From: a virus
Length of the DNA stretch: 23,525 nucleotides
IMG/VR virus record: IMGVR_UViG_3300006119_000067
Span: 1-23,525 of that record
Direction: 5' to 3' (one strand)
Below the pieces are notes generated by a model. It searched no databases, was not told the DNA's origin, and saw nothing but the letters and a program-made list of their open reading frames with translations. Below, piece by piece: positions 5,736 to 23,525 of this stretch; within the stretch, counting starts at the first letter, position 1, and each line of letters begins with the position of its first letter. A program made the translations under genes and the position numbers.

Positions 5736-5745
5736 TTTTAATTAT

Positions 5746-8223
5746 TTAATTTGTTGAACCGAATGCACCTGTTTGCCAATCGTATAACACTTGATTTCCG
5801 TCTTCATTTAATATTTGATATATTAATGTTCCTTGTTTAGTTTGTTTTTGTACTATTTTAAAATTTATATTTTGAGCTGCAACGGCATTTGCTTCTTTTG
5901 TAATATTTCCCGGTAAATACGAGATTCCAGATTTTGCCATTGCTCTTGCGGTTCTATCTGTTATAGATGAACCACCTTCCATTGAAGTATTTCCTCCAAC
6001 TCCTCTAACTGATTCTGCTGCTATATTTGTGCCTTGATCTATTTTATCTGCTATATTTTGCCATTTTTGAGTATCAGTAAATGGCATATGACTTATTAAA
6101 GAAGCAACATTAGAAGCTACTCCACCAAAGAACTCTATTGCACTAGCAATAACTCCTTTGATTGTATTTAAAACTCCTTGCATATTTTGAGGATTCGATA
6201 AATAATTTATAAAGTTTTCTATTTTATCAATTAAGTGAGATCTTTCAACAAAATCAACGATGGAAGTTTTTAATTTATCCATGTACGCAGCAATCTTTTC
6301 TTGTGTAGAAGCGTTTTGCATATTTTGGAAAGCTTCATCTCCTAAAGCGGCATTAAATTCTTTTTGAGTTGCGTATTTCTTTTTTGCAAGTTCGAACTGT
6401 GTCGCAGAACTATCAGTTTCTTTTGCACCAATTTTGGCTAATATTTCTTGTTTTTTAAGCATGTCGCCTAATTGATCCCTTGACATACCCATGGCTTTTG
6501 CCAATGATTCTGCTTGGATTCTATTCATCTTCATGAAATCGGCAGAAGAACCAACTTGAGAACTTATTTCTCCTGCAGCTGTGGCCAAATCATTATTTAA
6601 AAATGCTTCCCTAGCTTTGGTTAAATTAATGTCCTTTCCTGTCAATAATTGTGCTTCAAACTCGTTTGAAATACTTGATTCAAAATCTAAGAACGAATCG
6701 GCTATTGAATCCAATTGTTTTAATTCTAAACCAAACGATTTTGCAGTTACTAAAGCTTTTGATAATTGACCTGGGTATTTAGCAAAAGAAAGTCCTAAAT
6801 AACCGCCCAACGAAGAGGCTTCTTTTAAAATTTGTTTTTGATTTAAACTTATCCCGGTTGCTTTTTGTAATCCAACTACTTGTGCTAAAACTGCTTGAGT
6901 TGTTTCTTTTGCAGTTTTACCCGTAATAGTAGAGCTCTCCGCTATGCTTAATTGAGTTTGTTCGTCTATTCCTGCTATGTCCTTTAATTTGGTTAAAGTT
7001 GATAGTTGTTCGTCTGTTAATTGATTGTTAATTCCCAATTGAGCGCCCAAAGAAACTTGAGTGTCCATTAATTTCTTAGAAGTAACGTATATATCGTTAT
7101 TTCTAAACGATACGTCTTGGAAGTGATTGGCCATTTTTTCTGCCTCACCCCTACTTAGACCTAAATTTCTTCCTGCTTTAATTATTTGATCATTAACACC
7201 CAATAATAAATCAGCGACTCCCGAAAGTCCGTCTACAATCCCTCCTACTAATCCACCTACTAAAGGAAGAGATTTTAACATTCCAGAAAATCCACTTGTC
7301 AAATTAGATACTACACCTGTAGAATTTTCGTTTAATCCACCCATAGCTTTTCCTGCATTTCCTATAGTTGAACCTACAAGATTCCCAGCTTTTCCAATTC
7401 CTTTAAAAGCAAGACCCAATCCTGCACCAACTATAGCTGCTCTTCCTAAAGGATCTTCCCAAGTTTTTTTAATAGCATCTTTTCCTACATCTTTAAGAAC
7501 TTTAAATTTATCAGCTAATGATATTTTTTTACCTTCTTTATTTAGATCTCTGGCTTTTTTGACCATAGCTTCTGCAGCCTGTTCTCCAATACCAAAATTC
7601 TTAGCTAATTTCATAACAGCTCCACCAGAAAGACCAATTTGATTCGCTATGTCTTTTTCTATGACTTTTTGAGTCAATAATCTTTTTTGAGTCTCATCAT
7701 ATGTCTCTTGAGTTTTTTTAGCTTGCGCATATTCTAATTGGTCGATGGACATCATGTCCTCTTTTTTTGCAATAACTTTATCATATCTATTTATAGCTTT
7801 ATTTAAAGATTCCATTAAAGAAAAATCATCTTTAATTCTAGCTTGATTAAAAGCTGCTTCAGCAATTGCTCTATCAGATATGTTTTTTAAATAAGATTCA
7901 GCTTGTTTTTTTTCTGAGGTTTTTAAATTATCGCTTAATGATAATAATTTTTTATCATTTTCCCATCTTTTCTCAGTAGTAGATTTGATCTCTTTTTCTA
8001 AATCTTTTATATTGATAGCTGACTCATTAATAGCAGATAATTTTGCTCCTATTTTAGAATAGTTTTTTAGTACTTTATCTAACTCTTTTACAGATTCTTT
8101 TAAACTATCTTTATAATATCCCCCATCTTTAGCTATGTCTTTAAGAAGAGTCTTAAGAACTTTAGCTTCTGAAATATTAAATTCAGGTTGTCCTGATTGT
8201 TCATTTGGAGTAGTGTCTGCCAT
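5746..8223 (-). CDS. Tail tape measure protein
   Basis: An 825-residue protein, the expected format of a tape measure: it sets tail length and sits inside the tail tube. Residues ~15-190 are charged, Lys/Glu-rich and helical with coiled-coil character. Residues ~259-343 are glycine-rich and hydrophobic (for example AAIVGAGLGLAFKGIGKAG and LVGGLVGGIVDGLSG), typical of the membrane-active part of tape measures. Residues ~350-660 are again alpha-helical with many Gln/Lys/Glu. A second hydrophobic stretch lies at ~687-711. Its position after a T4_baseplate-family gene and a short chaperone-like gene, and before baseplate proteins, fits. An ATATTTAT promoter-like element lies 20 nt upstream of the ATG. 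At the usual ~0.15 nm per residue it would correspond to a tail of very roughly 120 nm. Confidence 0.88.
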   Translation of the reverse strand: MADTTPNEQSGQPEFNISEAKVLKTLLKDIAKDGGYYKDSLKESVKELDKVLKNYSKIGAKLSAINESAINIKDLEKEIKSTTEKRWENDKKLLSLSDNLKTSEKKQAESYLKNISDRAIAEAAFNQARIKDDFSLMESLNKAINRYDKVIAKKEDMMSIDQLEYAQAKKTQETYDETQKRLLTQKVIEKDIANQIGLSGGAVMKLAKNFGIGEQAAEAMVKKARDLNKEGKKISLADKFKVLKDVGKDAIKKTWEDPLGRAAIVGAGLGLAFKGIGKAGNLVGSTIGNAGKAMGGLNENSTGVVSNLTSGFSGMLKSLPLVGGLVGGIVDGLSGVADLLLGVNDQIIKAGRNLGLSRGEAEKMANHFQDVSFRNNDIYVTSKKLMDTQVSLGAQLGINNQLTDEQLSTLTKLKDIAGIDEQTQLSIAESSTITGKTAKETTQAVLAQVVGLQKATGISLNQKQILKEASSLGGYLGLSFAKYPGQLSKALVTAKSFGLELKQLDSIADSFLDFESSISNEFEAQLLTGKDINLTKAREAFLNNDLATAAGEISSQVGSSADFMKMNRIQAESLAKAMGMSRDQLGDMLKKQEILAKIGAKETDSSATQFELAKKKYATQKEFNAALGDEAFQNMQNASTQEKIAAYMDKLKTSIVDFVERSHLIDKIENFINYLSNPQNMQGVLNTIKGVIASAIEFFGGVASNVASLISHMPFTDTQKWQNIADKIDQGTNIAAESVRGVGGNTSMEGGSSITDRTARAMAKSGISYLPGNITKEANAVAAQNINFKIVQKQTKQGTLIYQILNEDGNQVLYDWQTGAFGSTN

Positions 8224-9382: not shown

Positions 9383-10144
9383 TTATTTATAGTATATTTT
9401 ATGGGTCTGAAGGAAATTATAGTATTTGCTGCGTTTAGATCTAGGTTTATAATTAGCGTAGTTAGATCCATTTAAAGCTTCGTGTATAACTGAATAATGG
9501 ATATTGCCTAATTTTTTAGACATTTGAAGAGCAGATCCCGCTTCTATTTTGTCTCCTGTTTCTATATTCTCACATATAACTATTCCTTTACTCGCTCTTG
9601 ATTCTTCTCCTATTTTTCCTATCTTACATTGTATAGCTTTCTCAGATATAAGTTTTTTAGAGGCGTCTGATCTTTTTGTCCCTACACTTCTATTACTATT
9701 AATCCAACCTAAACTTAAATAGTCTTCTAGCTCTAGAAGATCTACTAACTTAAATTCTCCATTAATTGGATTAATAATTTGTTTTCTACCTTTGTGAGAA
9801 ATACCAATATTTTTTCTGTGCGACTCTGATTTAGTCCTTTTCCACAAGGGCATAAGAATTTCTCTAGCTTCTTTGTACTCTTGTTCTGTTAAAGTCTTTG
9901 AACCATCATATGACATTCTATGGAAAGCCCAATATACTTTATAAGCGTATAATGAGTGATCTTTAAAGCACTCCACTAGTATTTTGTGAACTCTGTAATG
10001 TTCATCCGCTGTGAGCAATACTGTTGAACTCTTTTTGCCGAATGACTTGGGTACTATATGATGAGCTTCGTAATATGTGTCATCATCTTTTGATCTATCT
10101 TCTTTGATAGCTTGTCTAATAATTTTGAAATAACTTGTAAGCAT
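9383..10144 (-). CDS. HNH homing endonuclease, free-standing
   Basis: A 253-residue selfish endonuclease that cuts a specific site and promotes spread of its own gene. The HNH core is at residues 26-56: EAHHIVPKSFGKK, then TADEHYRVHKIL, with His28, His29, His49 and His53 as likely catalytic or metal-binding residues. A NUMOD3-like DNA-binding motif lies at ~103-121 (SESHRKNIGISHKGRK). A NUMOD1-like or IENR1-like region is at ~186-240 (IETGDKIEAGSALQMSKKLG, then SVIHEALNGSN), giving a standard nuclease plus DNA-recognition layout. It lies between intact tail tube and baseplate genes and interrupts neither, so it is an intergenic homing gene, not an intron. It is the one gene here with a strong Shine-Dalgarno sequence (GGAGG, 7 nt before the ATG), and that sequence is buried in a hairpin. 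Both features suggest foreign origin and tight translational control. Confidence 0.93.
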   Translation of the reverse strand: MLTSYFKIIRQAIKEDRSKDDDTYYEAHHIVPKSFGKKSSTVLLTADEHYRVHKILVECFKDHSLYAYKVYWAFHRMSYDGSKTLTEQEYKEAREILMPLWKRTKSESHRKNIGISHKGRKQIINPINGEFKLVDLLELEDYLSLGWINSNRSVGTKRSDASKKLISEKAIQCKIGKIGEESRASKGIVICENIETGDKIEAGSALQMSKKLGNIHYSVIHEALNGSNYANYKPRSKRSKYYNFLQTHKIYYK

Positions 10145-11742: not shown

Positions 11743-13500
11743 TTATTGTGCGAAAGTTGCACCGGTTGGTAATATGTTAAAGTCTAATTGAATAAATTCA
11801 GCCACTCTTGTAGGTTGTAAATAAATACTACCAACTAAAATGTTTCTATCTATTTGATCAGGTGTATTATTAGTACTATCCATAATTACTTGGAATGCAT
11901 AAAGACCTTGTCTTTGTTGTACAGATTCTAAATAAGGATTAACTTGATTTAAGAATTTATTCCAAGTAACTTGAGTATTTGGTTCGAACACTAAATTCTG
12001 ACCAATTTGTCTAATATATCTCTTAAGAGAAATCAATAGTCTTCTAACATTTACTCTATCTAAAGCAGAGGCTTTAGCTGCTAATGTTTTTTGACCATAG
12101 ATAACTGTACCTACTCCAGTAAAAGTAGCAATTGGATTAACTTTCGCAGCGTATAAGTTATTTCTATCTGTGATAGATAATCTTCTTTCAGGTTGTAATG
12201 CAGTAGATAATCCACCTCTATTTAAACCTGCTGGTGCCCACCATTCTGCAGCAATCTTATCATTGTATTCATATACTGCTGGAACTAATACTGATGGTGG
12301 AACAAAATTCATTCTTCCAGTTTCAGAAGATTTAATTTGAATCCATGGCCAATAAGTAGCTCCGTATGAATTATCAAAACTAGTAGCTGCGCTTGTTACA
12401 GTTCCTATATTCTGATTATATCCAACTAAATCTACTACAGAAATACTATCACCTCTTGTACTTGATAAGTTAAGTAAGTTAGTAATTTCAATAGGTGCAT
12501 TTTGATTAGTTAAACCTGGTGCATATATAATATTAAAGTCATATTGATCTTGGTTACCTAATAAACTAATTGCTGTATCATAATCAGGTCCATAAATTCC
12601 TTGGATATTTGTTACTGGATTAGAGTAAACAGCTGTTATAGTTGGATTATTTTCAAACATGTTTAACGGTGCTAATCCATAAGATCCCCAAAAAGGTCCA
12701 GTTGCACTACCAAATCCACCATTTAAAGAACCAGATCCTGAGTTAGGCAATGACGCTGTATATTGTGTTTGAGGTTGACCTAACTGGTTAAGGTAGTTAG
12801 GAGTAGTATTAACTGATGATACATATACGTATTTGGACTTATTAGCATAGCTACCAGTAGTTTGTAAATAATAAGCTCCAGTGCTTGCATCCTGAGTTAA
12901 TGTTTGATATTGATCTCCAATTACATATGATATATAATTAGTTTGGTTTGGATCTAAAGATAAGTTTGACCAGCTTTCTAATATATTTTTATTAGTTTCA
13001 TAATCATCTCCTCTTCTAATATTTAAAGTAAAATTACCTGATCCAGTATTATATCCAACAATTTCCCATCTAACATTAGCAGTTGAACCAGAAGGTAATG
13101 CACCATTAATAGTTGAACCAGTAGCATTATTCATTATTGTTCCAACTGAAAGTGTATTCAATTGAATAGCTGTTGTTCCATTTAATGCTGCAATGCTTGC
13201 TGTAGCTACCGTATAAGAACCTGAAGCTACTCTTGTTACTAATAAAGAAGTACCGCCTTGGTTAAAGTAGTTTAATGCTGCAACGCTAGTTAAATATTCT
13301 AAAGTAATACCTCCAGAAACGAAGGTAGAACCATACAATTGCTTGTATTGAGAATAAGTAGTTACTACAGTTGGAATATTCACCGGTCCCAATACGGTTG
13401 GTCCAATTAAAGCAGCGCCGGCCGCTATTGGACCTGCTGTTATTTGGGTTTGGTTGTTTTCATTTAAGAAAACTCCTGGGCTAATGAGTGTTTCGGCCAT
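11743..13500 (-). CDS. gp18: Tail sheath protein (T4 gp18-like)
   Basis: A 585-residue contractile sheath protein; it polymerises around the tail tube and contracts to drive the tube into the host. The N-terminus has the family's opening LISPGVFLNENNQTQI (residues 5-20), with GAALIGPTVLGPVNIPTVVT just after. The central part is variable and Ser/Thr/Asn-rich, probably the surface-exposed domain. The C-terminal third carries the conserved sheath core: residues RRLLISLKRYIRQIG, then FEPNTQVTWNKFLNQVNPYL, and finally RNILVGSIYLQPTRVAEFIQ. T4 gp18 is a little longer (659 residues). An ATATTTAT element lies 23 nt before the ATG, and no Shine-Dalgarno sequence is present. The next genes are a lysine-rich protein and the tail tube, matching T4-like order 18-19. 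Confidence 0.97.
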   Translation of the reverse strand: MAETLISPGVFLNENNQTQITAGPIAAGAALIGPTVLGPVNIPTVVTTYSQYKQLYGSTFVSGGITLEYLTSVAALNYFNQGGTSLLVTRVASGSYTVATASIAALNGTTAIQLNTLSVGTIMNNATGSTINGALPSGSTANVRWEIVGYNTGSGNFTLNIRRGDDYETNKNILESWSNLSLDPNQTNYISYVIGDQYQTLTQDASTGAYYLQTTGSYANKSKYVYVSSVNTTPNYLNQLGQPQTQYTASLPNSGSGSLNGGFGSATGPFWGSYGLAPLNMFENNPTITAVYSNPVTNIQGIYGPDYDTAISLLGNQDQYDFNIIYAPGLTNQNAPIEITNLLNLSSTRGDSISVVDLVGYNQNIGTVTSAATSFDNSYGATYWPWIQIKSSETGRMNFVPPSVLVPAVYEYNDKIAAEWWAPAGLNRGGLSTALQPERRLSITDRNNLYAAKVNPIATFTGVGTVIYGQKTLAAKASALDRVNVRRLLISLKRYIRQIGQNLVFEPNTQVTWNKFLNQVNPYLESVQQRQGLYAFQVIMDSTNNTPDQIDRNILVGSIYLQPTRVAEFIQLDFNILPTGATFAQ

Positions 13501-13555: not shown

Positions 13556-13798
13556 TTAAAATTCTCCATTATTAATATTTATGGAAACGTTTCCATATTT
13601 GGATTGTAATTCCTGAAATAGATTCGATTCTCTAGAACGAATTTCTTTAATTTTATTTGTTAAATCCTCAATTTGAAATTCTAAAATTATTTTTTGATAG
13701 TTTAATTCTCCCAACGCTGATGCTATTTCTATAGCGTCCTGTTTTAAAAGATTTAATTTTGCAAATTCTTCGTCTGTAATTTTTTTTACTTCTGACAT
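13556..13798 (-). CDS. Small coiled-coil protein of unknown function
   Basis: An 80-residue, mostly helical protein. Residues ~8-70 carry heptad-like spacing of Leu and Ile (EEFAKLNLLKQDAIEIASAL, then IILEFQIEDLTNKIKEI), a likely coiled coil. It ends in a short Asn-rich tail, GNVSININNGEF. Its own ATATTTAT element lies 30 nt upstream of the ATG, in the gap after the glycosylation genes, and the sheath gene follows 55 bases on. Small coiled-coil proteins of this size are common near structural genes in environmental T4-like phages but have no established role. It is real by length, promoter and position; function unknown. Confidence 0.75.
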   Translation of the reverse strand: MSEVKKITDEEFAKLNLLKQDAIEIASALGELNYQKIILEFQIEDLTNKIKEIRSRESNLFQELQSKYGNVSININNGEF

Positions 13799-13855: not shown

Positions 13856-16246
13856 CTAATTCTCTCTTCTATCTTCTGGGGAATAGTGGGCGATTCTATT
13901 GTGATTTATTGGACTTGCTAATAATACTGCGGGTTTAATGTTACCCTTTCTTGTTTCTTGAAATATATAACTCATCCAGGTTTGTTCATAAGGATGAGCC
14001 CACTCAACGTCTAAAAACATTTTTTGATTTCCTTTTTTACCAGTAATAGTTGGCCAATTTGCGTAATATATTTCCCCTGTTATATAACTAAGACCGTCTA
14101 TTACTTCTATTTTATTAAATTGAGTTCTTGGAGAATTTGGATCTAATCCAGTAACAGGTAATTTATCGTAATTTGGCCAACATTCTGATCTGACGCTTTG
14201 AGGAACATTATACCAAGACACTTGAATATTATTATCCATGTATACTTCAGTATAGGACAGTTTTAAAAAATCAATGTCCGATCCATGAAGAATTTTTAAA
14301 ACTTTATCATATAAATTTGGAATGTAAGTTTTAAATCCGTTTCTACAAAATCCATCGATAGGTTCATGAATTCCCATATCGTCTTCTAAGAATAAATAGT
14401 AGTCGCTATCCGATTCTTGAAAATGTTTTGCAGCTCTTAATCTTCCTCCGTTTATACCAGTATTTTCATTCGTAATAATATGTTTAAAATTATACTTATC
14501 ACAGAGTTCTTTATTTTTTATTCTAGCTTCTTCGTTAGTTGAATTATCTATTAAAATATTTCTAGTATTAGTTAACCAATTATTGTGTTTTAACCAAGTT
14601 TGAATTGTGTGCTCTACTTGATGAGGAAAATTAAAAGTTAACATATAAACAGATAATTTTAATTTATTTACATTTATATGTTTTTTAGGAGCATAGTGAT
14701 TTTCTTCTATAGGTTTTGATAATTGTATTTGATTATCATTTAAAGCTTGAACAAATTTTATTATTAATCCGTTTCCATCCAATTCATATCTTCTATATAA
14801 ATTTGGATTTAAATGAGCCATAATAGCAAATATACTTTCTTCAGTTCCCATTAATCCTTGAGATAGTGTAGTATCAAGTAATGTATAATATTCAGCATTA
14901 GCTTGATGTATAGCCTCTTTTGTTCCTCCAAATAATCCGCCTCTACAAACGTATTCAACTTTTTTATTAGCGTACTTATTTATTGCTTCGAATTTAAACC
15001 CATGAATTTCATCTACAGCTTCATAAGGATAAGATAAAAATAAAAACGGATCAATATGATCTGTTATTTTATTTAACACGTCGTGCTCCGTAAAATATTT
15101 TTCGTACACTGTATTAGTAATACCCGCGTCTAACCACATAAAGTAATTAGTATCAAATGGATTCCATATACTCACATCGTGTAACATAAACATTTTAGAC
15201 ATCACTATTGGATTATACCATTCTAAAGACGCTTGAGGACTATTTTTTAACCATCCAGATTCTCCAGTTGAATTGTACCATTCTGGATCATTTCTAATTT
15301 CTTGAGTTTTATTCCAAAATGGAGAATATAAATTTTTAACATCGTCTAATTCGTATACTTTTACAAACGTATTTATTGGAGATCTTTTTTTCCAAATAAG
15401 ATGTTCGTATTGTTTTTCTATAAAAATAAATAAATTTTGAGAGACATCTAAAATTTTATTTAGATGATCTATATAATGATCAAAAGATCTTCCTGTTCTA
15501 TTTATATTCCATAAGCCTGTAACAACCGTTAAATCAGATTTTGGTTTTTTTGTAACTATGGGTTCAATAGATTTATTATTTAAATAATTTTTTACTCTCT
15601 GTAGATCCCATAAAGCTAATACTTTTCTATTTCCATTTTCAAAATTATCTACTCGTACATCTTCTTCTAAGTAAATGTCTGCTTCTGGAAAATTAAACGG
15701 TTCATCCATTAAATTTACTGGATAAAATCTTCCGTACTCTACTCCCTCATTTTGCCTATCTACTTCTATTTTATTACATTTACCCCAACCATTTTCTGTT
15801 TTTTTAGCCCATGTAGTACTAAATAGATATTTACAATTTGATTTAAGTATATTATCAACTATTTTTTTACCATCTTCTATTGGAAAATGTCCTATAACAT
15901 CTCTAACGATTAAAAGATCTCCATCAGGAATAGCGTCATTTAACAAATCAAATTCTATAAATTTTATTCTTTTATTGGAATATTGTTCATTATTTGTATC
16001 TACGCATTCTTTTACTATATCTCCACCAATATAAGAATCAAAATTAAATACAATCTCTTTCATCCAATTAAAATCTCCGCATGGTATATCTACAACAGAT
16101 CTAATTTCTTTTTCTTTTATTACTTCTTTTAACTTTTCTCTAAGAAATTTAGTATCTTCTAAATTACTACCTTGACCTGATCTACTTTCTTTACTACCAA
16201 ACAAATGATTTTCATATATGGTTGTAAAAATTTGTTTATACGACAT
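13856..16246 (-). CDS. Three-domain fusion: methyltransferase + HtrL/YibB + GT2-like glycosyltransferase
   Basis: A 796-residue protein that joins three units. Residues ~1-215 are a class I SAM-dependent methyltransferase: VVDIPCGDFNWM (51-62) is the SAM-binding motif, with YIGGDI (72-77) and LLIVRDVIGHFP (111-122). Residues ~237-505 match the HtrL/YibB family (PF09612), starting DLTVVTGLWNINRTGR and including NYFMWLDAGI (367-376), a likely nucleotide-sugar site. Residues ~528-796 resemble a GT2-type glycosyltransferase: LSVYMLTFNFPHQVEHTIQ, then ILIDNS, and the metal-binding LEDD at 620-623. The fusion could add a sugar, extend it and methylate it on one polypeptide. It is the last gene of the nine-gene block and begins three bases after the preceding stop. 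No stop or frameshift interrupts it, so the fusion is not an assembly join visible here. Sugar and acceptor are unknown. Confidence 0.85.
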   Translation of the reverse strand: MSYKQIFTTIYENHLFGSKESRSGQGSNLEDTKFLREKLKEVIKEKEIRSVVDIPCGDFNWMKEIVFNFDSYIGGDIVKECVDTNNEQYSNKRIKFIEFDLLNDAIPDGDLLIVRDVIGHFPIEDGKKIVDNILKSNCKYLFSTTWAKKTENGWGKCNKIEVDRQNEGVEYGRFYPVNLMDEPFNFPEADIYLEEDVRVDNFENGNRKVLALWDLQRVKNYLNNKSIEPIVTKKPKSDLTVVTGLWNINRTGRSFDHYIDHLNKILDVSQNLFIFIEKQYEHLIWKKRSPINTFVKVYELDDVKNLYSPFWNKTQEIRNDPEWYNSTGESGWLKNSPQASLEWYNPIVMSKMFMLHDVSIWNPFDTNYFMWLDAGITNTVYEKYFTEHDVLNKITDHIDPFLFLSYPYEAVDEIHGFKFEAINKYANKKVEYVCRGGLFGGTKEAIHQANAEYYTLLDTTLSQGLMGTEESIFAIMAHLNPNLYRRYELDGNGLIIKFVQALNDNQIQLSKPIEENHYAPKKHINVNKLKLSVYMLTFNFPHQVEHTIQTWLKHNNWLTNTRNILIDNSTNEEARIKNKELCDKYNFKHIITNENTGINGGRLRAAKHFQESDSDYYLFLEDDMGIHEPIDGFCRNGFKTYIPNLYDKVLKILHGSDIDFLKLSYTEVYMDNNIQVSWYNVPQSVRSECWPNYDKLPVTGLDPNSPRTQFNKIEVIDGLSYITGEIYYANWPTITGKKGNQKMFLDVEWAHPYEQTWMSYIFQETRKGNIKPAVLLASPINHNRIAHYSPEDRREN

Positions 16247-16249
16247 ACT

Positions 16250-16864
16250 TTATTTTTTTATTTTACAAGTCCAAACTACTTGTTGAAAATCTTCTTGCAT
16301 AAAAGGTTCTAAATTATATTGATCTACTGTGTCTTTAATATCTGAATCTTGTATCTCATGCCAATTCCATACTTCATTTCTTATATACTGTTCAAAATAT
16401 TCAGGATTTGGAGAATAATCGTGTGCCATTATTATATCTCCTGATCTTAAGTATTTACTCAATATATTAAATTCATTCTTTTTACTTCCACCGTCGCATA
16501 AAATAATTGTACATCCATCTCTATGTATAAAATCTGTAAGTTCTACTTCCTCAACTACTTGATCGTACATATGATTAAAAATATTTTTTACTCTAAAATC
16601 TATCTTAGCTCCATTCTCTATAGCATTTTTTAACCAGTATCTGTCTGTTTCTAATACATCATAACTTCTAAGATCAGAATTAACTAACCCTACTTCATCT
16701 AATAAGTCTCGAAGTAATAATGTTAAACCTCCATAAGAAGTTCCAATTTCTAATACTTGACAGGGATTTACTGTTTCAAATAATTTTTTAAGTGGAATAG
16801 CTATATTTTCATGTTGTAATGTGGTAGTTCCTCTATAAGCGTACCATCCTGATATGTCTTTCAT
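16250..16864 (-). CDS. CmcI-like SAM-dependent methyltransferase
   Basis: A 204-residue class I methyltransferase. The SAM-binding loop is VLEIGTSYGGLT (37-48). A second signature is IILCDGGSKKNEFNILSKYL (120-139), followed by SGDIIMAHDY (141-150). The CDGG...HDY pattern is that of the CmcI/cephalosporin-hydroxylase-like family (PF04989) and related rhamnosyl O-methyltransferases, which methylate hydroxyls of sugars or small molecules. It overlaps the upstream PLOD-like gene by four bases (ATGA), so the two are probably translationally coupled. It most likely caps a sugar added by a neighbouring glycosyltransferase; the substrate is inferred from context only. Confidence 0.82.
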   Translation of the reverse strand: MKDISGWYAYRGTTTLQHENIAIPLKKLFETVNPCQVLEIGTSYGGLTLLLRDLLDEVGLVNSDLRSYDVLETDRYWLKNAIENGAKIDFRVKNIFNHMYDQVVEEVELTDFIHRDGCTIILCDGGSKKNEFNILSKYLRSGDIIMAHDYSPNPEYFEQYIRNEVWNWHEIQDSDIKDTVDQYNLEPFMQEDFQQVVWTCKIKK

Positions 16865-17592
16865 ATTTTATTGATTAAGTTTAAACTAAAGCTTGAATTA
16901 TCGTGTATTAAATAAGGATATGTATTAAATTTTGTTTTAATTAAGTTATTTTCTATGGAATAATAAGATTCATCTAATAGAGCTGTAGAAAAAAAATATT
17001 TGCAATTTTTATCAGCATTTAATTCTTTTATGGCTAAATTATAATATTGCCAAACTCCTTGATCATCCCAAAAATCTATATTAGAATTTAAACATAAATC
17101 TATTAAGTTTACTAAATAATTATAAAACACTTCTGTCTTAGAAATTATTGCTCCTGAATTAATGTAATTAAATTCTTTTTCTTCTAATGAAGTTTGTACC
17201 CAATTTCTTACAACTTCTAAATAAGGCCAACAGTTTTTTTCTGTAGAAATAATAAACTCTTCATTAGTAGATACAAAATCTTTCATCATCTCTATAAAGC
17301 TTCTACAAAATTTTGTATCATTATAATCTATATGACAAATATATTCATATTTAGTAAGTATATTTTTTTCTATAAAATCTTTAATTAAAAATATTTTTCC
17401 ATATACTAAATCTTTTCTTCCTGATAATCCTATGTTAAGATTATCTCTGTGCCAAGGATCAAATTCGTTTGAAAAATTAATATATATGTCTTCTAAATTT
17501 GCATCGCAGTTAAATCTAGATTTCAATTCTTCTTTAGAAGGAATATTGCAATTTAAACAATAGTATGTAGTAATTAAAGCGTAGTTTTTCAT
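16861..17592 (-). CDS. PLOD-like (collagen glucosyltransferase-type) glycosyltransferase, second copy
   Basis: A 243-residue GT-A-fold protein with the same motif order as the gene at 19047-19754. YICHIDYNDTKF (84-95) carries the acidic metal site, INSGAII (144-150) is the donor-binding loop, and DDQGVWQYY (176-184) and YLIHDN (227-232) close the active site. These are the landmarks of the glycosyltransferase domain of lysyl hydroxylase/PLOD proteins. That domain adds glucose to galactosyl-hydroxylysine in collagen. A phage enzyme need not use the same substrate. The sequence has diverged strongly from its paralogue, so different specificity is likely. It overlaps the FkbM gene by four bases upstream and the CmcI-like gene by four bases downstream. 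The exact sugar is unknown. Confidence 0.78.
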   Translation of the reverse strand: MKNYALITTYYCLNCNIPSKEELKSRFNCDANLEDIYINFSNEFDPWHRDNLNIGLSGRKDLVYGKIFLIKDFIEKNILTKYEYICHIDYNDTKFCRSFIEMMKDFVSTNEEFIISTEKNCWPYLEVVRNWVQTSLEEKEFNYINSGAIISKTEVFYNYLVNLIDLCLNSNIDFWDDQGVWQYYNLAIKELNADKNCKYFFSTALLDESYYSIENNLIKTKFNTYPYLIHDNSSFSLNLINKI

Positions 17593-18260
17593 TTTATGTT
17601 TCTTTTAAAATGATAATCACCATCTACATGATTATCACTAAATAAAGGAGTTACTAATTCAAAACCCATAGATTCTATAATTGGAATAGATTGATCTATT
17701 AAAATAGCTCCTTTATTATATTCTACTTTTTGCAACTCTACAATTAAATGCTCACAATATTTTAAAGTATCTTGCATACCCATTAAAATATCTATTTCAC
17801 AACCTTGAACATCTATTTTAACCAAATCAGGATACTGAAAATTTTTTTCTTTTACGCATTTATCTATGGTTTTGGTATTTACCAACCTTTCACTATCTTT
17901 ATTAAAATATATGTCTGTAAATGCTGACATTTCTTTATAGTAAGAATTTCCTCCAGGCTGTTCATTATTTTGATAAAAAATTAATTCTTTATCTTCAATA
18001 TCACTAAAAACACCAATACAATATTCTATATTATTTTCTTTATATAAAAATTCTACTGTATCCATTGCTTCAAAAGCATATATTTTAGAATTAGGCCAAA
18101 CTTTTTTTGCGGGTTTGTACCAATGTAAAACACAAGATCCTATATCATATATAACATTAGGATTAACATTAAATTCGTTTTTTAATTTGTATAAATAAGC
18201 TAAATGAGAATCAGGCAGCATATTTGACTTACTTAAATCTCGTAAAGATTCTTCTATCAT
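17589..18260 (-). CDS. FkbM family methyltransferase
   Basis: A 223-residue protein of the FkbM/Methyltransf_21 family. The SAM-binding motif is VIYDIGSC (36-43), the acidic second strand is IYAFEAMD (60-67), and the family's signature VKIDVQGCEIDILMGM lies at 147-162, followed by LIVELQ (172-177). FkbM enzymes O-methylate hydroxyl groups; in phage and bacterial glycan clusters they typically methylate sugars. It overlaps both neighbours by four bases (ATGA junctions), placing it firmly within the coupled block. Methylation could block further sugar addition or protect the glycan from host enzymes; this is inference. Confidence 0.9.
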   Translation of the reverse strand: MIEESLRDLSKSNMLPDSHLAYLYKLKNEFNVNPNVIYDIGSCVLHWYKPAKKVWPNSKIYAFEAMDTVEFLYKENNIEYCIGVFSDIEDKELIFYQNNEQPGGNSYYKEMSAFTDIYFNKDSERLVNTKTIDKCVKEKNFQYPDLVKIDVQGCEIDILMGMQDTLKYCEHLIVELQKVEYNKGAILIDQSIPIIESMGFELVTPLFSDNHVDGDYHFKRNIK

Positions 18261-19045
18261 TCATTATAAATTTTAAGAGATTTTTGCATATTACTTTTCC
18301 ATAAAAATACTTCAGTTAAATAATTAGGTTTAAAAAAATGACAAATAGAAAAATCTATAATAATTTTAATATTACAAAAATTTTCAAAAATAGATAATCC
18401 AACAGAAGTACTTATGGCTTTATGACGTCTATTTATTTTTTCATCTTCTTCTTTAAGAATATTTCCAAATTCTATAAGTTCATTTAAATAGTGCATCATT
18501 TTTTCTGATTTTTTAAATAAAAGGATGCTTTCTAAATAAACTTGTTTTTTTATTTCATTATTATAATTTGGTAATTTATTTTTTAAATACGAAATAATTC
18601 TTTCGTGTCCAAAAGTATAATTTCTTACATCTTTATTTTCATCGATCTCTGGTGTTCTTAGATGCCATTCGATATTAATCGTGTATCCAAGTCCCCAAGG
18701 AACTATCAAATCAAAATCTTTTGATCTTATTAAATCTTCAAACTTTTTAGAATCATATTTTTCTTCTCTAAAATCAAAAAGTCTAGCATCAGAATCCATA
18801 AAATATACTAGAGTTTCTTCTGTGTTTTCAAAAATATATTTTATGAGTTCAAATCGACTATAATCGGTCCATTCTTTGTCGGTTTTAACTAAAAAAACGT
18901 TATCAAAACAATAATAATCTAAATCTATATCCATGTTAGTTAACACATAAACTTTTTCATTTATGTTTCTAAAATCATTTAATAAATGCATTAAATTAGA
19001 TTTAATTCTATCATCAGTACTAATTGCAAGAGTTGCGAATACCAT
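18257..19045 (-). CDS. Putative GT-A-type glycosyltransferase (262 aa)
   Basis: I chose the ATG at 19045, giving 262 residues. The frame also has an ATG at 19099, but that would overlap the upstream gene by more than 50 bases. The start at 19045 lies one base after that gene's stop and leads straight into the beta-strand typical of a glycosyltransferase N-terminus (MVFATLAISTDDR). LVYFMDSDARLFDF (79-92) is a DxD-type metal and donor site. Later landmarks are DLIVPWGLGY (112-121), a basic EEDEKINRRHKAISTSV stretch (199-215), and ICHFFKPNY (234-242), whose His could complete the metal site. I cannot place it in a named family with confidence. Context supports glycan synthesis. It overlaps the FkbM gene by four bases. 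Confidence 0.7.
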   Translation of the reverse strand: MVFATLAISTDDRIKSNLMHLLNDFRNINEKVYVLTNMDIDLDYYCFDNVFLVKTDKEWTDYSRFELIKYIFENTEETLVYFMDSDARLFDFREEKYDSKKFEDLIRSKDFDLIVPWGLGYTINIEWHLRTPEIDENKDVRNYTFGHERIISYLKNKLPNYNNEIKKQVYLESILLFKKSEKMMHYLNELIEFGNILKEEDEKINRRHKAISTSVGLSIFENFCNIKIIIDFSICHFFKPNYLTEVFLWKSNMQKSLKIYNE

Positions 19046-19046
19046 T

Positions 19047-19754
19047 TTAAACCAAATTAAATTTTTGTATAAATCTAGGACTTCCCCAATTCCATCCATT
19101 ATCGTGTAAAAATATAGGAAATTTATATCCTATATAATCATTATGATCTCTAGAATATGTATTAAAAAATAATCTATATTCTTTATCTAAAACTATCTGT
19201 GGTAAATTTTTACTTAAATAATGAAAAATAAAAATTCCCTGATCTCCACCAAAAGATTTTAAATTTTTAGAAAGAACATTATTAATTAAACTATCTAAAA
19301 AATCTATATAATTTTTTTTACTAGTTATAAAAAGTCCTGAATTTAAAAAATGAAGATTTTTTATTTCTTCTGAAGAATACTCTAGTCCTCCCCAATCTCC
19401 CATACTCGATGGATATCTATTAATTTCTGAAGATACTAATACGCTATCTGGAATTTCTAATGATTGTACATTTCCTAAGCAAACGACATCATTCGCATCT
19501 GCAACTATAAAACAATCTGTATCAAAAAATTTAATTTTTTCTTTTGTTAAAAAAAGTTTATACAGAATATATTCGTATTGATAATCAAATCTTAATTTAA
19601 ATTCTTGTTCTAACTCTAAATATTCATTTCTATTATAATGTATATGTAAAAAATGCTCTTTATCATTTTGTTTTATAAAAGATCTATATAAAAAAGTATT
19701 TTCTATATTATAAGAATTTTCATAAGACCACGTTATTGTCAATAATTTTACCAT
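19047..19754 (-). CDS. PLOD-like (collagen glucosyltransferase-type) glycosyltransferase, first copy
   Basis: A 235-residue GT-A-fold enzyme. Its motifs follow the PLOD glycosyltransferase domain in order: CFIVADANDVVCLG (81-94) with an acidic metal-binding DAND, LHFLNSGLFI (134-143), FGGDQGIFIF (168-177) and PIFLHDNGWNW (213-223). In animals and in mimivirus L230 this domain acts on galactosyl-hydroxylysine in collagen-like proteins. Bacterial and phage relatives exist, but most are uncharacterised. It overlaps the GT25-like gene by seven bases (19748-19754), so the pair is probably coupled. The pairing is suggestive because GT25 and PLOD enzymes act in sequence on collagen. The donor sugar cannot be read from sequence. 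Confidence 0.8.
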   Translation of the reverse strand: MVKLLTITWSYENSYNIENTFLYRSFIKQNDKEHFLHIHYNRNEYLELEQEFKLRFDYQYEYILYKLFLTKEKIKFFDTDCFIVADANDVVCLGNVQSLEIPDSVLVSSEINRYPSSMGDWGGLEYSSEEIKNLHFLNSGLFITSKKNYIDFLDSLINNVLSKNLKSFGGDQGIFIFHYLSKNLPQIVLDKEYRLFFNTYSRDHNDYIGYKFPIFLHDNGWNWGSPRFIQKFNLV

Positions 19755-20455
19755 ACTTTAGATTTTGGATGATGCATAGGTATCCAATCTTCTAAATTAG
19801 TTTCATGAAGCCAAAGATCAGAATAAGAATTATATTGAGTTGTAAAACACGTATTGTAACATAAACATTTATATTCAGTTTTAAAAAAATCTAACGGCTG
19901 ATCTTTTTCGTAAAATTCATTTCCAAAAGGATCTTTTGCTATATCATATCCGTAAGCAAAAAGACATAAAAGTTCATCAGGATTTAAACTATTCCAATCA
20001 TGTTTAAAATTATCTAATATATCTTTTGCCATTTTTCTTTTTATAATATAAGATTGTGCATAACTAGGAGAAGATACTTGATAACAATTATTTTTATAAA
20101 ATACGGGTGGTTTTCTATTAACACACCCTAACCAAAATAAATCCCAATCTACGGAATATATATCATCAAATATTTTAGCAGTATTATCTTTTAATTCAGG
20201 TAAAAACATGCAATCATCTTCAAGTATTAAAAGAGTTTCGTTATCTGTGCTTAAAAAATTTTCATATATATCAAAAGTAGTGTTGATTAAATTAAGTTGA
20301 GGAGTATCTGTATCAGATCTTGCAGAAAATCTTTCTACATTTTTTATGTCGTATTCTTTTAAATTAGCTAATAATTTTTCTTTTCTATCTTCTCTTCTAT
20401 CTAAATTGATAAAAAATCCTATATCTGATATTTTAACGTCTCCTATTGTTACCAT
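19748..20455 (-). CDS. GT25-like glycosyltransferase
   Basis: A 235-residue protein of the GT25 type (PF01755, LPS and collagen galactosyltransferase family). The N-terminal signature FFINLDRREDRKEKLLANL is at residues 14-32, and ETLLILEDDCMF (73-84) contains the acidic ILEDD site. SSPSYAQSYIIKRKMAKDIL (128-147) matches the usual segment after it, where Ser/Tyr-rich residues precede a helix. The C-terminal third carries several His and Trp residues (LWLHETNLEDWIPMHH). GT25 members add galactose to LPS in bacteria and to hydroxylysine in collagen. It starts three bases after the stop of the second GlcNAc-transferase-like gene and overlaps the PLOD-like gene. The acceptor is unknown; a phage tail or fibre protein is my inference. 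Confidence 0.85.
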   Translation of the reverse strand: MVTIGDVKISDIGFFINLDRREDRKEKLLANLKEYDIKNVERFSARSDTDTPQLNLINTTFDIYENFLSTDNETLLILEDDCMFLPELKDNTAKIFDDIYSVDWDLFWLGCVNRKPPVFYKNNCYQVSSPSYAQSYIIKRKMAKDILDNFKHDWNSLNPDELLCLFAYGYDIAKDPFGNEFYEKDQPLDFFKTEYKCLCYNTCFTTQYNSYSDLWLHETNLEDWIPMHHPKSKVW

Positions 20456-20458
20456 AAA

Positions 20459-21724
20459 TTATAAAATTTTTTCTATTCTTTCACACCAACCTATTTCTTC
20501 ATTATAAGCCCAATAAACAACTCTAGATGGAATTTTATGAGTCAAGAAAAATTCTTCGTAATGAATGTTATTTCCTTGATTAAAATAATTTAATCTTCCA
20601 TCGTCTATAAATCTTGTGCTTAAAGAATTTCCATTTTCGTCATCAAAAGCGACTAAAACAAATTTATAGTCATTTCTTGCGAATGAACTTTTATCTATAT
20701 TAACTAAATGATAAAAAGATTCCATGAAAGACGCTTCCCATAATTCATCATTTTGTATTAGTGGATTGGGTGGGTACTTATTATCTACAGTGTATTTTTG
20801 AACCGCTTTAGTTTTAAAATTAACTCCTGCGTATTTTTCGTAATCCCGTAAAGTTCTTACAGTTCCAAGATCATAACCAGTCAAATCAATTTCTGGGTCT
20901 TCTTCGACTCTAAATAAACATCTAATTTTTTTTCTTGCATAGTCCTGCTTTCTATTAAAATCTATATTATTTTTTGAGTCATCATCCCATTTTAAAATAC
21001 CTGATCTTTCTTCCCTCATTGTTGAATGCCAAATTATCATTTTATGTGGATGAAAAAAGTCGTATCCATGAGTATAAGATCTAACAGTTAAATTAATCTC
21101 TTCTCCACTAAAATAAATGTCAGGGTCGTGTCTTATTTCCCTTGCCCATTCTGATCTTGCAAAACAGAAGTGTCCAGATAAAAATCTGCTCATCGGTGGC
21201 TTTGTCATAGTTTCCCAACCTTCCAATAAAGCTGGTCTAATGAATATTGTACCATGCGGGTAGAAGCATGCGAATTGTTGCTGCCAGGGTACTGTGGCGC
21301 GTCCATCTGGATCGTCAAATGGAGTGTACAGAGGTAAATAAGCCGCTAGAATTGGTTTGTATCCATCAGCTTCTAATGAATTATGCATATCGATTAAGGT
21401 TTCATCCCAATCTTCTGCAAATCTGTGATGAGAATCTAACTGTAAAATATAATCTTGGTCTGTTAATAAATTTTCATTTATTTGAGCCCTTGCCCATGGT
21501 AAACCTTTGGCTTCTGTATACAAAACTTCCATAATGTGAAATCTTTCGTCGTCTTCGAATCTTGATGTGTCATCAAATCCATCTTCAGGATGATATTGTC
21601 TACATATTCCAAAATGTATTCTTTCTGGATATTTTGCTTTTATTAATGCATCTTCTATAGTTGGAATTAACTCTGGATCGCGATACGATGGAAGATGAAC
21701 TAGTATTGTTTCTAATTTATTCAT
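20459..21724 (-). CDS. GlcNAc-transferase family protein (PF11397), second tandem copy
   Basis: A 421-residue protein clearly paralogous to its upstream neighbour. VHLPSYRDPELIPTIEDALI (9-28) opens the nucleotide-sugar fold. ILQLDSHHRF (93-102) is the metal site, FLSGHFCFAR (181-190) and YFSGEE (204-209) follow, and IIWHSTMREER is at 230-240. This order defines the 'Glycosyltransferase (GlcNAc)' family, which includes the Skp1 hydroxyproline GlcNAc-transferase of Dictyostelium (GT60). Residues ~340-421 form a second domain shared with the neighbour, perhaps for substrate binding. Its first bases overlap the upstream stop (ATGAATAA, eight bases). Divergence between the two copies suggests different acceptors or donors. 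Confidence 0.88.
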   Translation of the reverse strand: MNKLETILVHLPSYRDPELIPTIEDALIKAKYPERIHFGICRQYHPEDGFDDTSRFEDDERFHIMEVLYTEAKGLPWARAQINENLLTDQDYILQLDSHHRFAEDWDETLIDMHNSLEADGYKPILAAYLPLYTPFDDPDGRATVPWQQQFACFYPHGTIFIRPALLEGWETMTKPPMSRFLSGHFCFARSEWAREIRHDPDIYFSGEEINLTVRSYTHGYDFFHPHKMIIWHSTMREERSGILKWDDDSKNNIDFNRKQDYARKKIRCLFRVEEDPEIDLTGYDLGTVRTLRDYEKYAGVNFKTKAVQKYTVDNKYPPNPLIQNDELWEASFMESFYHLVNIDKSSFARNDYKFVLVAFDDENGNSLSTRFIDDGRLNYFNQGNNIHYEEFFLTHKIPSRVVYWAYNEEIGWCERIEKIL

Positions 21725-22973
21725 AGGTTATAACTTGTTGTATTACGTCCATCCATCCTTTTGATTCACTGTGCGGCCAAACTCTCCAACTGTGTGGAGC
21801 TTTTGTATCTTCATAATCCCTCCAAATGTGTATAAATTGATCCTCAGGAATTTCTTCCATCAATCTTTTAATTTCATCTTTATCACAATCTTGCCTGTAT
21901 AGATCGTTTCCATTTTCGTCCAATGTTGCGACTGCAAATGTATTATAATCAGTTTCTGTTAAACTTCCTTTATAAACGTCTATACAAATTTTTTGTTTAC
22001 TGCACAAACCTTCTTCATAATCTCCAATAGTTGGAGGTGGTTTGTGAGTTAGTGTGTGCTTGTGGATCTGTCTTGTTTTAAATTTTAGACCTGCGTATTT
22101 TTCGTAATCCTCTAAAGTTCTATTAGGACCAAATACGTAAGGTTGTAAAGTCTTTCTAGTACATGGACCACATCCAGGATCCATTTCAAATAATTTTCTA
22201 AAACGACTATAAGATTTATTGTCTTTTTCTGCCCATTCTGAATTGTCATCCCAATGTTTTTTCTTTCCTTCGCGTGTGTATTCATGCCAAGCGTAAACTT
22301 TATGCGGATTGAATAAATCGTATCCATAAGTGTATGCTCTAGCAGCTAAAGAAGTTTCTTCTCCGTGAAAATAAAAGTTAGGGTCGTAAGGAACTTCTTC
22401 TACAAATTTTCCAATCGTGAATATAAAATGCGCAGACAAAAATCTAGATAAAACAGGCTCTTTTAAATCTCTCCAACCATCCAAACCTTGAGGTCTTAAA
22501 AAAACAGCGCCCTGTGGCATAAATCTATCTATGTTAAGCATCCACACATCTTGAATTCTATCTTCAGGATCTTTATCTGGAAAATATGATGGTAAATAGG
22601 TTGATAGAATTGGTTTGTAATGACCTTTACACTGAAGATAGTGGATCATATCAATTAATTCCGTATCCCAGTGTTTAATAAATCTGTGATGGGAATCTAA
22701 TTGAAAATAATAATCCTCTCCTTTATAGTCTTGCTGTATTAAATTTCTTGCCCAACAAACTCCTTCGGAATCTTCGTAATTAATGTCTGTAATTCTAAAT
22801 CTAGGATCATCTTTAAATTCTTTTAAAGTATCCCATTCGTCTTCAGATGAATGTTGCCAACCAATGGCGAATATTAAATTTTCAGGATATTTAGCGTTTG
22901 CTATGCAGTCCTTTATTGTAGGTAATAATTCAGGATCTCTGTAGCTCGCTATAGAAATAAATATTTTACTCAT
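21717..22973 (-). CDS. GlcNAc-transferase family protein (PF11397), first tandem copy
   Basis: A 418-residue enzyme of the 'Glycosyltransferase (GlcNAc)' family. IFISIASYRDPELLPTIKDC (4-23) is almost diagnostic. YYFQLDSHHRF (88-98) holds the DxH metal site, with FLSAHFIF (178-185), YFHGEE (201-206) and YAWHEYTREG (227-236) following. Family members transfer GlcNAc from UDP-GlcNAc to hydroxyls, including hydroxyproline of the protein Skp1. A C-terminal domain (~320-418) is shared with the next gene. This is the first gene of the nine-gene glycan block, and two ATATTTAT elements lie 17 and 35 nt upstream of its ATG, the likely promoters of the block. No Shine-Dalgarno sequence is present. Confidence 0.9.
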   Translation of the reverse strand: MSKIFISIASYRDPELLPTIKDCIANAKYPENLIFAIGWQHSSEDEWDTLKEFKDDPRFRITDINYEDSEGVCWARNLIQQDYKGEDYYFQLDSHHRFIKHWDTELIDMIHYLQCKGHYKPILSTYLPSYFPDKDPEDRIQDVWMLNIDRFMPQGAVFLRPQGLDGWRDLKEPVLSRFLSAHFIFTIGKFVEEVPYDPNFYFHGEETSLAARAYTYGYDLFNPHKVYAWHEYTREGKKKHWDDNSEWAEKDNKSYSRFRKLFEMDPGCGPCTRKTLQPYVFGPNRTLEDYEKYAGLKFKTRQIHKHTLTHKPPPTIGDYEEGLCSKQKICIDVYKGSLTETDYNTFAVATLDENGNDLYRQDCDKDEIKRLMEEIPEDQFIHIWRDYEDTKAPHSWRVWPHSESKGWMDVIQQVITYE

Positions 22974-23027: not shown

Positions 23028-23525
23028 TTAAATTAATCCAAATCTCGATTTTTGTGCATTATAATTTTGTACTACTTCTGTTTGAGATAGTGCTCTGTTA
23101 TATATTTGAACAGGTCCCATTAGACCAGGAAAAAATAAAGTATTTGCTGATGTAGTGTCTGTTTTAGCTCCTAATAATAGTCCTGTATCTCCTGAGTTTG
23201 ATGGAGTAAGGTGGCCAGGTTGTTGACCATGCGCTATAGGCACTCCATTATAATAGCATTGAAAAGTTACTAATGTATCATAAGTCCATCCTATATAAAC
23301 CCATTGATTACATGGAACTCCATTGGTAAGATAGGTTCCAGCTGTACTAGCGTATAAAGGACCTCCAGTAAATCCCCAGTTTGTGTTAGCATTACAAGTT
23401 CCTCCAAATTGAAAAAAACTTGTAGAAGCAGCATAATCTCCAGTATAAAGAAGGTTACACCAATCCACTCCATCAGGATCGTTGTAATTAACCAATCTAG
23501 TATCATATAAAGACTGACTATATGA
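23028..23525 (-). CDS. LamG/jelly-roll domain virion protein, partial (N-terminus beyond right edge)
   Basis: The frame is open to the window edge, so only the last 165 residues are visible. They form most of a LamG/concanavalin-like jelly-roll: CNQWVYIGWTYD, FQCYYNGVPIAHG, GLLLGAKTD and the closing signature GLMGPVQIYNRALSQTEVVQ. The ending YNRALSxxEVxQNYNA is typical of Laminin_G_3-type domains in phage structural proteins. Such domains bind glycans or decorate fibres, necks or capsids. An in-frame TTG at 23495 is not the start, because coding sequence continues upstream of it. Its stop lies just before the promoters of the glycan-synthesis block, so the protein is a natural candidate partner or target. 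Which virion part it belongs to cannot be decided here. Confidence 0.8.
   Translation of the reverse strand, partial: SYSQSLYDTRLVNYNDPDGVDWCNLLYTGDYAASTSFFQFGGTCNANTNWGFTGGPLYASTAGTYLTNGVPCNQWVYIGWTYDTLVTFQCYYNGVPIAHGQQPGHLTPSNSGDTGLLLGAKTDTTSANTLFFPGLMGPVQIYNRALSQTEVVQNYNAQKSRFGLI

Follow-up and report, generated by a model that had tools for sequence, protein, structure and literature searches.

Glycosylation of virion proteins has so far been shown in few phages. Already known is the case of the mycobacteriophages, in which the C-termini of capsid and tail tube proteins are glycosylated (Freeman et al. 2023, as cited in PMC12619734). For the cultured Xanthomonas phage XacN1, at least two glycoproteins were reported "by proteomic analysis" and its authors suggest an involvement of phage glycosyltransferases, while, as far as the text at hand goes, only ORF328 and ORF334 are named as such and no gene block like the one treated here is described (PMC5852040). 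Outside phages, members of glycosyltransferase family GT60 act as polypeptide O-glycosyltransferases (PMC8724618, PMC7185993) and start the attachment of O-linked N-acetylglucosamine (GlcNAc) to protist mucins and Skp1 (PMC8724618; PMC3769586). They share a DxH motif and the glycosylation of polypeptide serine or threonine with family GT27 and were confined to prokaryotes and protists in one survey (PMC7185993). Here, a stretch of viral DNA of 23,525 nucleotides (IMG/VR record IMGVR_UViG_3300006119_000067, positions 1 to 23,525; in the following, the window) is described in which nine minus-strand open reading frames (ORFs), termed g1 to g9 in order of transcription, fill positions 13856-22973. 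The block starts with two GT60 genes, ends with a gene encoding a methyltransferase-HtrL_YibB-GT2 protein (g9) and sits among virion genes, with a LamG-domain protein on one side and the tail sheath on the other (Table 1). Its gene content, recurrence and exchange as well as the mucin-like proteins flanking its relatives are directly evident from the sequences, and it is probably a locus through which the phage itself O-glycosylates virion proteins, the ends of the locus being fixed and its middle exchangeable.

The exchange becomes apparent from the comparison of two closely related phages. Record G001 (L005) belongs to the same phage as the window (100% identity over 4,341 bases), while a sibling phage is represented by G002 (L006), to which G003 is identical over 22,345 bases. 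G002 shares 98.7-99.3% identity with G001 across 13 kb upstream and 96.4% across the GT60 pair; downstream, it matches the window at 94.8% across 9.7 kb, dropping to 82-87% toward the window's far end. In between, identity stops at position 20459, the stop codon of g2, and the exchanged stretch reaches to about 13834. Here, the sibling encodes proteins of 306, 314 and 292 amino acids, a carbamoyltransferase of 560 amino acids and a protein of 340 amino acids, followed by its own g9, in which a TylF N-terminus takes the place of the phrog_3382 methyltransferase and the remainder is 76.6% identical in DNA. The G+C content of the exchanged stretch amounts to 25.6% in the window and 26.3% in the sibling, compared to 32-33% in the flanks. 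Both phages also differ in their fibre (2255 versus 1455 amino acids) and in the upper part of the LamG gene, whose product comprises 277 amino acids in G001, is identical in L005 and only about 60% identical in the sibling. On the other side, the 80-amino-acid protein cc80 is 100% identical in L006 and 29% identical in Flavobacterium phage immuto. Judged from these alignments, near-identical phages carry different gene sets between the same flanks, like a capsule or O-antigen locus. Among 27 loci with a related sheath, many of them short sequences, GT60 is visible in five and of several kinds, but not in the available sequence of the other 22, and other genes occupy this site in sheath relatives. 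Next to the related sheath operon, L085 (693-3281) and L098 (1680-4799) contain GT60-matching ORFs of 862 and 1039 amino acids, which appear to be fusions or tandem domains. Furthermore, two contigs of sample 3300025429 (end of L005 and start of L105; window positions of about 16096-19185), both 100% identical to the window, terminate within the cassette (in g4 in one case, in g9 in the other), as could be expected if several cassettes coexist in the sample, low G+C being another possible cause.

Beyond this pair of phages, the locus is found repeatedly. An alignment scan revealed at least 593 viral stretches encoding a GT60 relative among the 600 pattern matches listed, of which 80 were kept for analysis. 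Clustering at 90% reduced the 137 fetched viral loci with GT60 to 85 clusters, 59 of which have an HtrL-type gene within 12 genes downstream of GT60, 54 of these ORFs having at least 500 amino acids. The 59 blocks hold 201 middle genes of 71 families in 48 distinct orders, omitting ORFs below 100 amino acids, mucin-like ORFs and those on the opposite strand, and one order is common to 76 of 88 recurrent pair sightings, i.e., gene order is nearly fixed. Since the sibling L084 stands for the window's phage in this set, the cassette of the window itself is not among them. Taken at the level of sequence, this is a recurrent locus with GT60 first, an HtrL_YibB-type protein last and a variable middle. 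Pfam matches of 71 representatives of the middle families (25 of 44 families listed) comprise methyltransferases, glycosyltransferases of families GT2, 10, 17, 25, 34 and PLOD, and carbamoyltransferase; FkbM, MT24, TylF and other methyltransferases recur across blocks. Nor is the arrangement a product of chance, as the order g1-g3-g4-(g5)-g7-g8-g9 is present in 10 of the 13 loci retrieved with g7, several of which are near-identical to each other, with the variants L072 (without g8), L073 (g9 before g1) and L079 (cut), while in L080 a g6 homologue on the opposite strand lies between g8 and g9. In most of these loci, the identity of g7 (61-73%) exceeds that of g1 (49-54%) and g9 (42-45%), L080 being an exception (g7 50%, g1 55%). 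A full-length g1 relative was detected by tblastn in only 3 of 50,697 phage records.

A second recurring feature is the neighbourhood of structural genes encoding long Thr/Pro/Ser repeats, which often adjoin the block. Applying a rule of at least 15 windows of 30 residues with S+T ≥35% and P ≥15%, a mucin-like ORF is present in 49 of the 85 non-redundant viral loci and touches the block in 37 of 84. Mucin-like ORFs occupy 48 flank positions, compared to 15.9 ± 3.2 expected (2000 permutations, maximum 27), and two other thresholds gave similar excesses with the same clustering (41 versus 13.9; 48 versus 16.2). The 44 mucin-like flank proteins fall into at least 20 families of unmasked sequence, and in other phages the block occupies unlike places, again adjoining such proteins. 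In G004 (167 kb; g1 72% identical to g1 of the window), only 2 of 222 ORFs are mucin-like, and these lie 23 and 44 base pairs from the two ends of the block. Counts for other whole records are 14 of 559 ORFs in XacN1, 12 of 508 in RAS14, 7 of 61 in G034, 5 of 85 in G037, 5 of 204 in G010, 5 of 202 in G016, 2 of 133 in G012 and 0 of 217 in immuto. XacN1, for which its authors found no tail-fibre homologues (PMC5852040), may use its 14 long Thr/Pro/Ser-repeat ORFs as adhesins. In L011-L015, a mucin-like structural ORF of 557-582 amino acids is inserted between the g1 and g2 homologues, and L011 and L012 carry a further one of 925 amino acids between the GT60 genes.

The association was also approached in reverse, using 80 records from a listing of at least 120 stretches with Thr-Pro DNA repeats and, as control, a base-shuffled repeat pattern. 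PF11397 was found in 11 of the 80 records, namely in 8 of 41 with strong mucin-like ORFs and in 3 of 39 others, the latter being L219 (with a mucin-like frame that ORF calling overlooked), L273 (short Thr-Pro run) and L277 (40-amino-acid fragment). Among records of at least 16 kb, 11 of 58 listed Thr-Pro-repeat records contain GT60 compared to 0 of 42 controls (one-sided Fisher p 0.0016), two control records also present in the Thr-Pro set having been excluded. Mucin-like ORFs occur in 5 of 78 control-pattern loci, although these loci are shorter on average. As GT60 acts on protist mucins, mucin-like repeats beside the block suit GT60 as initiator. Mucin-like Thr/Pro proteins are a commoner partner of the block than LamG. 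The latter was rejected as a constant partner, since LamG was present in 16 of 40 records and the block was missing from one of these 16; hence, the coupling of block and LamG genes, for which the preliminary description of this DNA had proposed a comparison of gene content, turned out to be loose. Hydroxyproline was likewise discarded as acceptor, as no prolyl-hydroxylase-type oxygenase of PF13640 was found in 22 records, other oxygenase families not having been searched.

With respect to the individual enzymes, both GT60 copies of the window match PF11397 far above its cut-off of 21 bits (175.2 and 234.7 bits), and all 57 unique full-length viral GT60s compared, both window copies included, have D-S-H, i.e., DxH instead of DxD (D93-S94-H95 in g1). 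No solved structure was found for g1 by sequence search; it is predicted to be the initiator, resembling a polypeptide GlcNAc-transferase. For g4, g5 and g7, no Pfam match above cut-off was obtained, g4 giving only a sub-threshold match to FANCL. The profile of the g4 family is akin to that of the g7 family (hhalign 98.7%), and both match the glycosyltransferase of human LH3, a collagen glucosyltransferase. The low-confidence model of g4 (pLDDT 62.8) matches LH3 (6fxk) and mimivirus R699, DxxD, GGDQG and HDNG are conserved in g4, and in L022 a g4-like enzyme is fused to an FkbM domain. Comparison of the g5 profile with solved structures yielded nothing better than E 0.47, while its model (pLDDT 75.9) finds GT-A-like folds with GT6 enzyme BoGT6a (4ayj) as best match (E 1.4e-5, TM 0.43), and g5 is hence predicted to be a GT-A-like glycosyltransferase. 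A search for g5 relatives by its own peptide patterns confirmed none; despite this, homologues at 38-40% identity occur in L068-L072, and alignment with those in L068 and L072 favours an inner start at 19045, which is probably the true one rather than 19099. The FkbM-family protein g6 is predicted to O-methylate sugars. In g9, the phrog_3382 methyltransferase (residues 8-196, E 3.4e-34) is followed by HtrL_YibB (PF09612, 242-484, E 1.9e-12) and GT2 (PF00535, 532-623, E 2.4e-4, below its cut-off), with weak methyltransferase matches only among solved structures. Because PF09612 passed its cut-off and the NCBIfam equivalog TIGR02192 was not reached (45.7 bits, cut-off 264.9), g9 contains a domain related to YibB and is not YibB itself. 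Its N-terminal methyltransferase is exchangeable, being replaced by TylF in L006 and absent in L009. None of the nine proteins contains a transmembrane-like segment (highest 19-residue Kyte-Doolittle mean 1.30), and neither flippase nor polymerase is among their Pfam matches.

Table 1 Features of the block and its flanks in the window
Feature	Position	Strand	Evidence or remark
LamG-domain protein	23028..23525	-	PF13385 E 5.3e-12; upstream of block; 5' end outside window
g1, GT60, first gene	21717..22973	-	PF11397 E 2.7e-69; phrog_24687 E 1.3e-147
g2, second GT60 paralogue	20459..21724	-	PF11397 E 3.3e-51
g3, GT25-like glycosyltransferase	19748..20455	-	PF01755 E 1.9e-5; phrog_2835 "glucosyltransferase" E 8.5e-11
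g4, LH3/PLOD-type glycosyltransferase	19047..19754	-	profile versus LH3 (6wfv) E 7e-7
g5, predicted GT-A-like glycosyltransferase	18257..19045 (longest ORF 18257-19099)	-	predicted fold
g6, FkbM-family methyltransferase	17589..18260	-	PF05050 E 7.1e-12; TIGR01444 E 2.3e-17
g7, LH3/PLOD-type glycosyltransferase, g4 paralogue	16861..17592	-	profile versus LH3 E 4.6e-9
g8, class I methyltransferase (Methyltransf_24-like)	16250..16864	-	PF13578 E 2.3e-4, below its cut-off
g9, methyltransferase + HtrL_YibB + GT2, last gene	13856..16246	-	domain matches
cc80, 80-amino-acid ORF, conserved right flank of exchanged region	13556..13798	-	
Tail sheath, conserved right flank	11743..13500	-	PF17482 + PF04984; phrog_23 E 3.4e-67

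The preliminary description had read the region as a glycan-building block of nine genes between LamG protein and tail sheath, and all nine are indeed found as minus-strand ORFs. Its near-gapless arrangement with short overlaps was confirmed as well, the junctions from g1 to g9 measuring -8, +3, -7, +1, -4, -4, -4 and +3 bases, where the +1 between g4 and g5 follows from the inner start of g5. Similarly, its count of six glycosyltransferases (two GT60, one GT25, two related to LH3 and one with GT-A-like predicted fold) holds because g4 and g7 match LH3 and the g5 model finds GT-A-like folds, and the proposed methyltransferase-HtrL-GT2 fusion is present in one protein, with GT2 below cut-off. 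Downstream, the block is followed by the 80-amino-acid ORF and then by sheath, tube and baseplate genes; a gene resembling HNH or homing endonucleases (9383-10144, minus strand; phrog_655 E 6.8e-19) lies between the tail tube and baseplate hub genes. Phage immuto possesses the tail genes in the same order (sheath 47%) and LamG genes upstream, while the block is absent. Due to this kinship with a Flavobacterium phage, the host is likely one of the Bacteroidota.

Sugar identity, acceptor, order of action and biological purpose we infer as follows. Enzyme g1, and probably also g2, would place the first sugar, by family precedent α-GlcNAc, on serine or threonine residues in a tail or fibre protein that the same late operon encodes; the acceptor in many relatives would probably be the adjoining mucin-like Thr/Pro-repeat protein. 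Using host sugar nucleotides, the middle enzymes (here GT25, two LH3-type and one GT-A-like) would then extend the chain, methyltransferases, or carbamoyltransferases in other versions, would cap it, and the HtrL_YibB-GT2 protein would contribute an unspecified step, possibly a late one. Recombination between the conserved flanks would swap the middle, so that similar phages wear different glycans, which might serve to mask surfaces of the host or the environment or to bind to them. That the block acts directly on an acceptor, as first proposed, agrees with the missing membrane segment, flippase and polymerase in the nine proteins and with GT60 being polypeptide-directed. Virion glycosylation is backed by the place among tail genes and by the glycoproteins of XacN1, the only relative for which such are known, and methyl capping is plausible, given the recurring methyltransferases. 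The proposal holds in part only, since sugar-nucleotide genes are indeed missing in the window, but some relatives' blocks encode an epimerase, GDP-mannose dehydratase, NeuB and cytidylyltransferase. No mucin-like ORF occurs in the available sequence of the window's phage, and its Ser/Thr-rich fibre and LamG proteins are candidate acceptors only, the latter perhaps being a mere neighbour of the block.

Among the explanations compared, direct glycosylation of virion proteins, best read as mucin-type O-glycosylation of proteins of tail or fibres, is the most likely and is favoured with reasonable confidence. Alternatively, the enzymes might alter the polysaccharide or glycoprotein of the infected cell's surface, e.g., for blocking re-adsorption, as bacterial surface-sugar loci include members of GT25, GT2 and HtrL_YibB and bacterial contigs also carry GT60, with a GT60 ORF identified by profile in 57 of the 80 loci kept. 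On these contigs, however, GT60 is mostly found without its partner, g9 being present in 2 of 49 clusters and a mucin-like flank in 3 of 46. Moreover, the nine proteins lack membrane segment, flippase and anchor, the block is located in the late tail operon, mucin-like structural genes flank it, and XacN1 has glycoproteins, which renders remodelling of the host surface unlikely. Considerably less probable still is a hypermodification of phage DNA, the other acceptor initially considered, in which the enzymes would glycosylate modified bases. Glycosyltransferases acting on DNA are known from phages, hydroxymethyl bases can serve as substrates of carbamoyltransferases as well as of glycosyltransferases, and in L017 genes at 4129-6389, which by eye we take to resemble QueC and QueE, precede the block by a few kb, a hint of 7-deazaguanine modification in that phage. 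Thymidylate synthase and dCMP hydroxymethylase are distinguished by an Asn and an Asp, respectively. In the relatives' records, however, the six inspected of seven genes of this family keep Asn, so that no dCMP hydroxymethylase is among these six, 15 of 22 records are without this family and a 194-kb record carrying the block has no such gene either, other base-modification routes being untested. GT60, in addition, is known for polypeptide acceptors (PMC7185993, PMC8724618). In G010 (about 199500-203171; L064), the thymidylate synthase is split across two ORFs that an HNH-like ORF separates, resembling the arrangement of a mobile intron.

Finally, the region between fibre and sheath could merely be a hotspot for cargo insertion, with repeats and glycosylation genes linked there independently of each other. 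This would agree with the other genes found at this place in sheath relatives and with several of the following findings, which also weigh against glycosylation of virion proteins by the block. On a FastTree tree, the mucin-like trait changes several times, at least 10, but is clumped, since shuffling gives 27 changes on average and no fewer than 21. With coarse single-linkage clusters, the flank excess disappears, 3 flank positions versus 1.2 expected in 17 clusters at 65% and 2 versus 0.7 in 8 at 55% both being not significant. The window's phage shows no Thr/Pro repeats in its available sequence, with mucin-like ORFs in 0 of 34 in G001 and 0 of 40 in G002 (both incomplete; 38 and 50 kb), and its Ser/Thr-rich fibres have counterparts in the block-free immuto. 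Besides, in 26 of 85 loci no g9 follows among the next 12 genes, and in just 3 of these the downstream sequence falls short of 6 kb, the block of XacN1 touches no mucin-like gene, the nearest one being 12 kb away, and the text at hand does not tie the XacN1 glycoproteins to particular proteins or genes (PMC5852040). Independent linkage is nevertheless hard to reconcile with the presence of the block at unlike places in other phages, again beside mucin-like proteins, with the 20 families of flank protein and with the near-fixed gene order, and we regard it as improbable, slightly more so than remodelling of the host surface.

If glycosylation of virion proteins by such loci holds true, it would be common, considering the number of viral GT60 stretches given above, combinatorial and fast-changing, and the surface identity of a phage would be set by exchangeable sugar cassettes besides its fibre sequence. 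This would matter for host recognition, for the sticking of phages to surfaces or their escape from binding proteins, and for the question of how mucin-type O-glycosylation arose. In addition, the loci are a source of protein-directed glycosyltransferases with likely acceptors adjoining. A more far-reaching idea, to which we give somewhat less than even chances, is that widespread environmental phages pair mucin-like tail proteins with a GT60-initiated exchangeable locus, i.e., possess phage mucins with switchable glycotypes, the sugar cassette travelling with variable fibres and setting the phage "serotype". In open PMC papers, subscription journals not being covered, no description of a GT60-led exchangeable locus with mucin-like neighbours was found, nor, within the wording used, any paper linking phages with GT60 or joining glycosyltransferases and mucin-like tail fibres in phages.

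Compared with known systems, the proposed role of the block resembles virion glycosylation in mycobacteriophages in that phage-encoded glycosyltransferases modify virion proteins, and 3 Mycobacterium phages are among 53 records matching some part of g9. In contrast to these, the block is led by GT60, comprises many more genes, has an exchangeable middle, lies in a contractile-tail operon and has Thr/Pro-repeat neighbours. Homologues of g1 and of the C-terminal part of g9 are present in Xanthomonas phage XacN1 and in Stenotrophomonas phages RAS14 and CM1, located in XacN1 (38.8 and 38.0%, respectively) in one cluster around a carbamoyltransferase and in RAS14 likewise in one cluster with a carbamoyltransferase, whereas the middle genes of all three differ from those of the window. 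The human LH3 and mimivirus R699 proteins are resembled by g4 and g7 in sequence profile and fold, but unlike LH3 both lack a lysyl hydroxylase domain. With protist mucin-type O-glycosylation, as in Trypanosoma cruzi mucins and Dictyostelium Skp1, the block shares the predicted GT60 initiator and, in its proposed role, Thr-rich or Pro-containing acceptors, while its genes are those of a phage, no Golgi is involved, the acceptor is only proposed and the 22 records hold no PF13640 prolyl hydroxylase. Bacterial capsule and O-antigen loci, in turn, are characterized by conserved ends, an exchangeable middle, sugar-modifying enzymes and low G+C, all of which recur in the block; it differs from them by the lack of flippase, polymerase and membrane protein among its nine products and by flanks that consist of virion genes.

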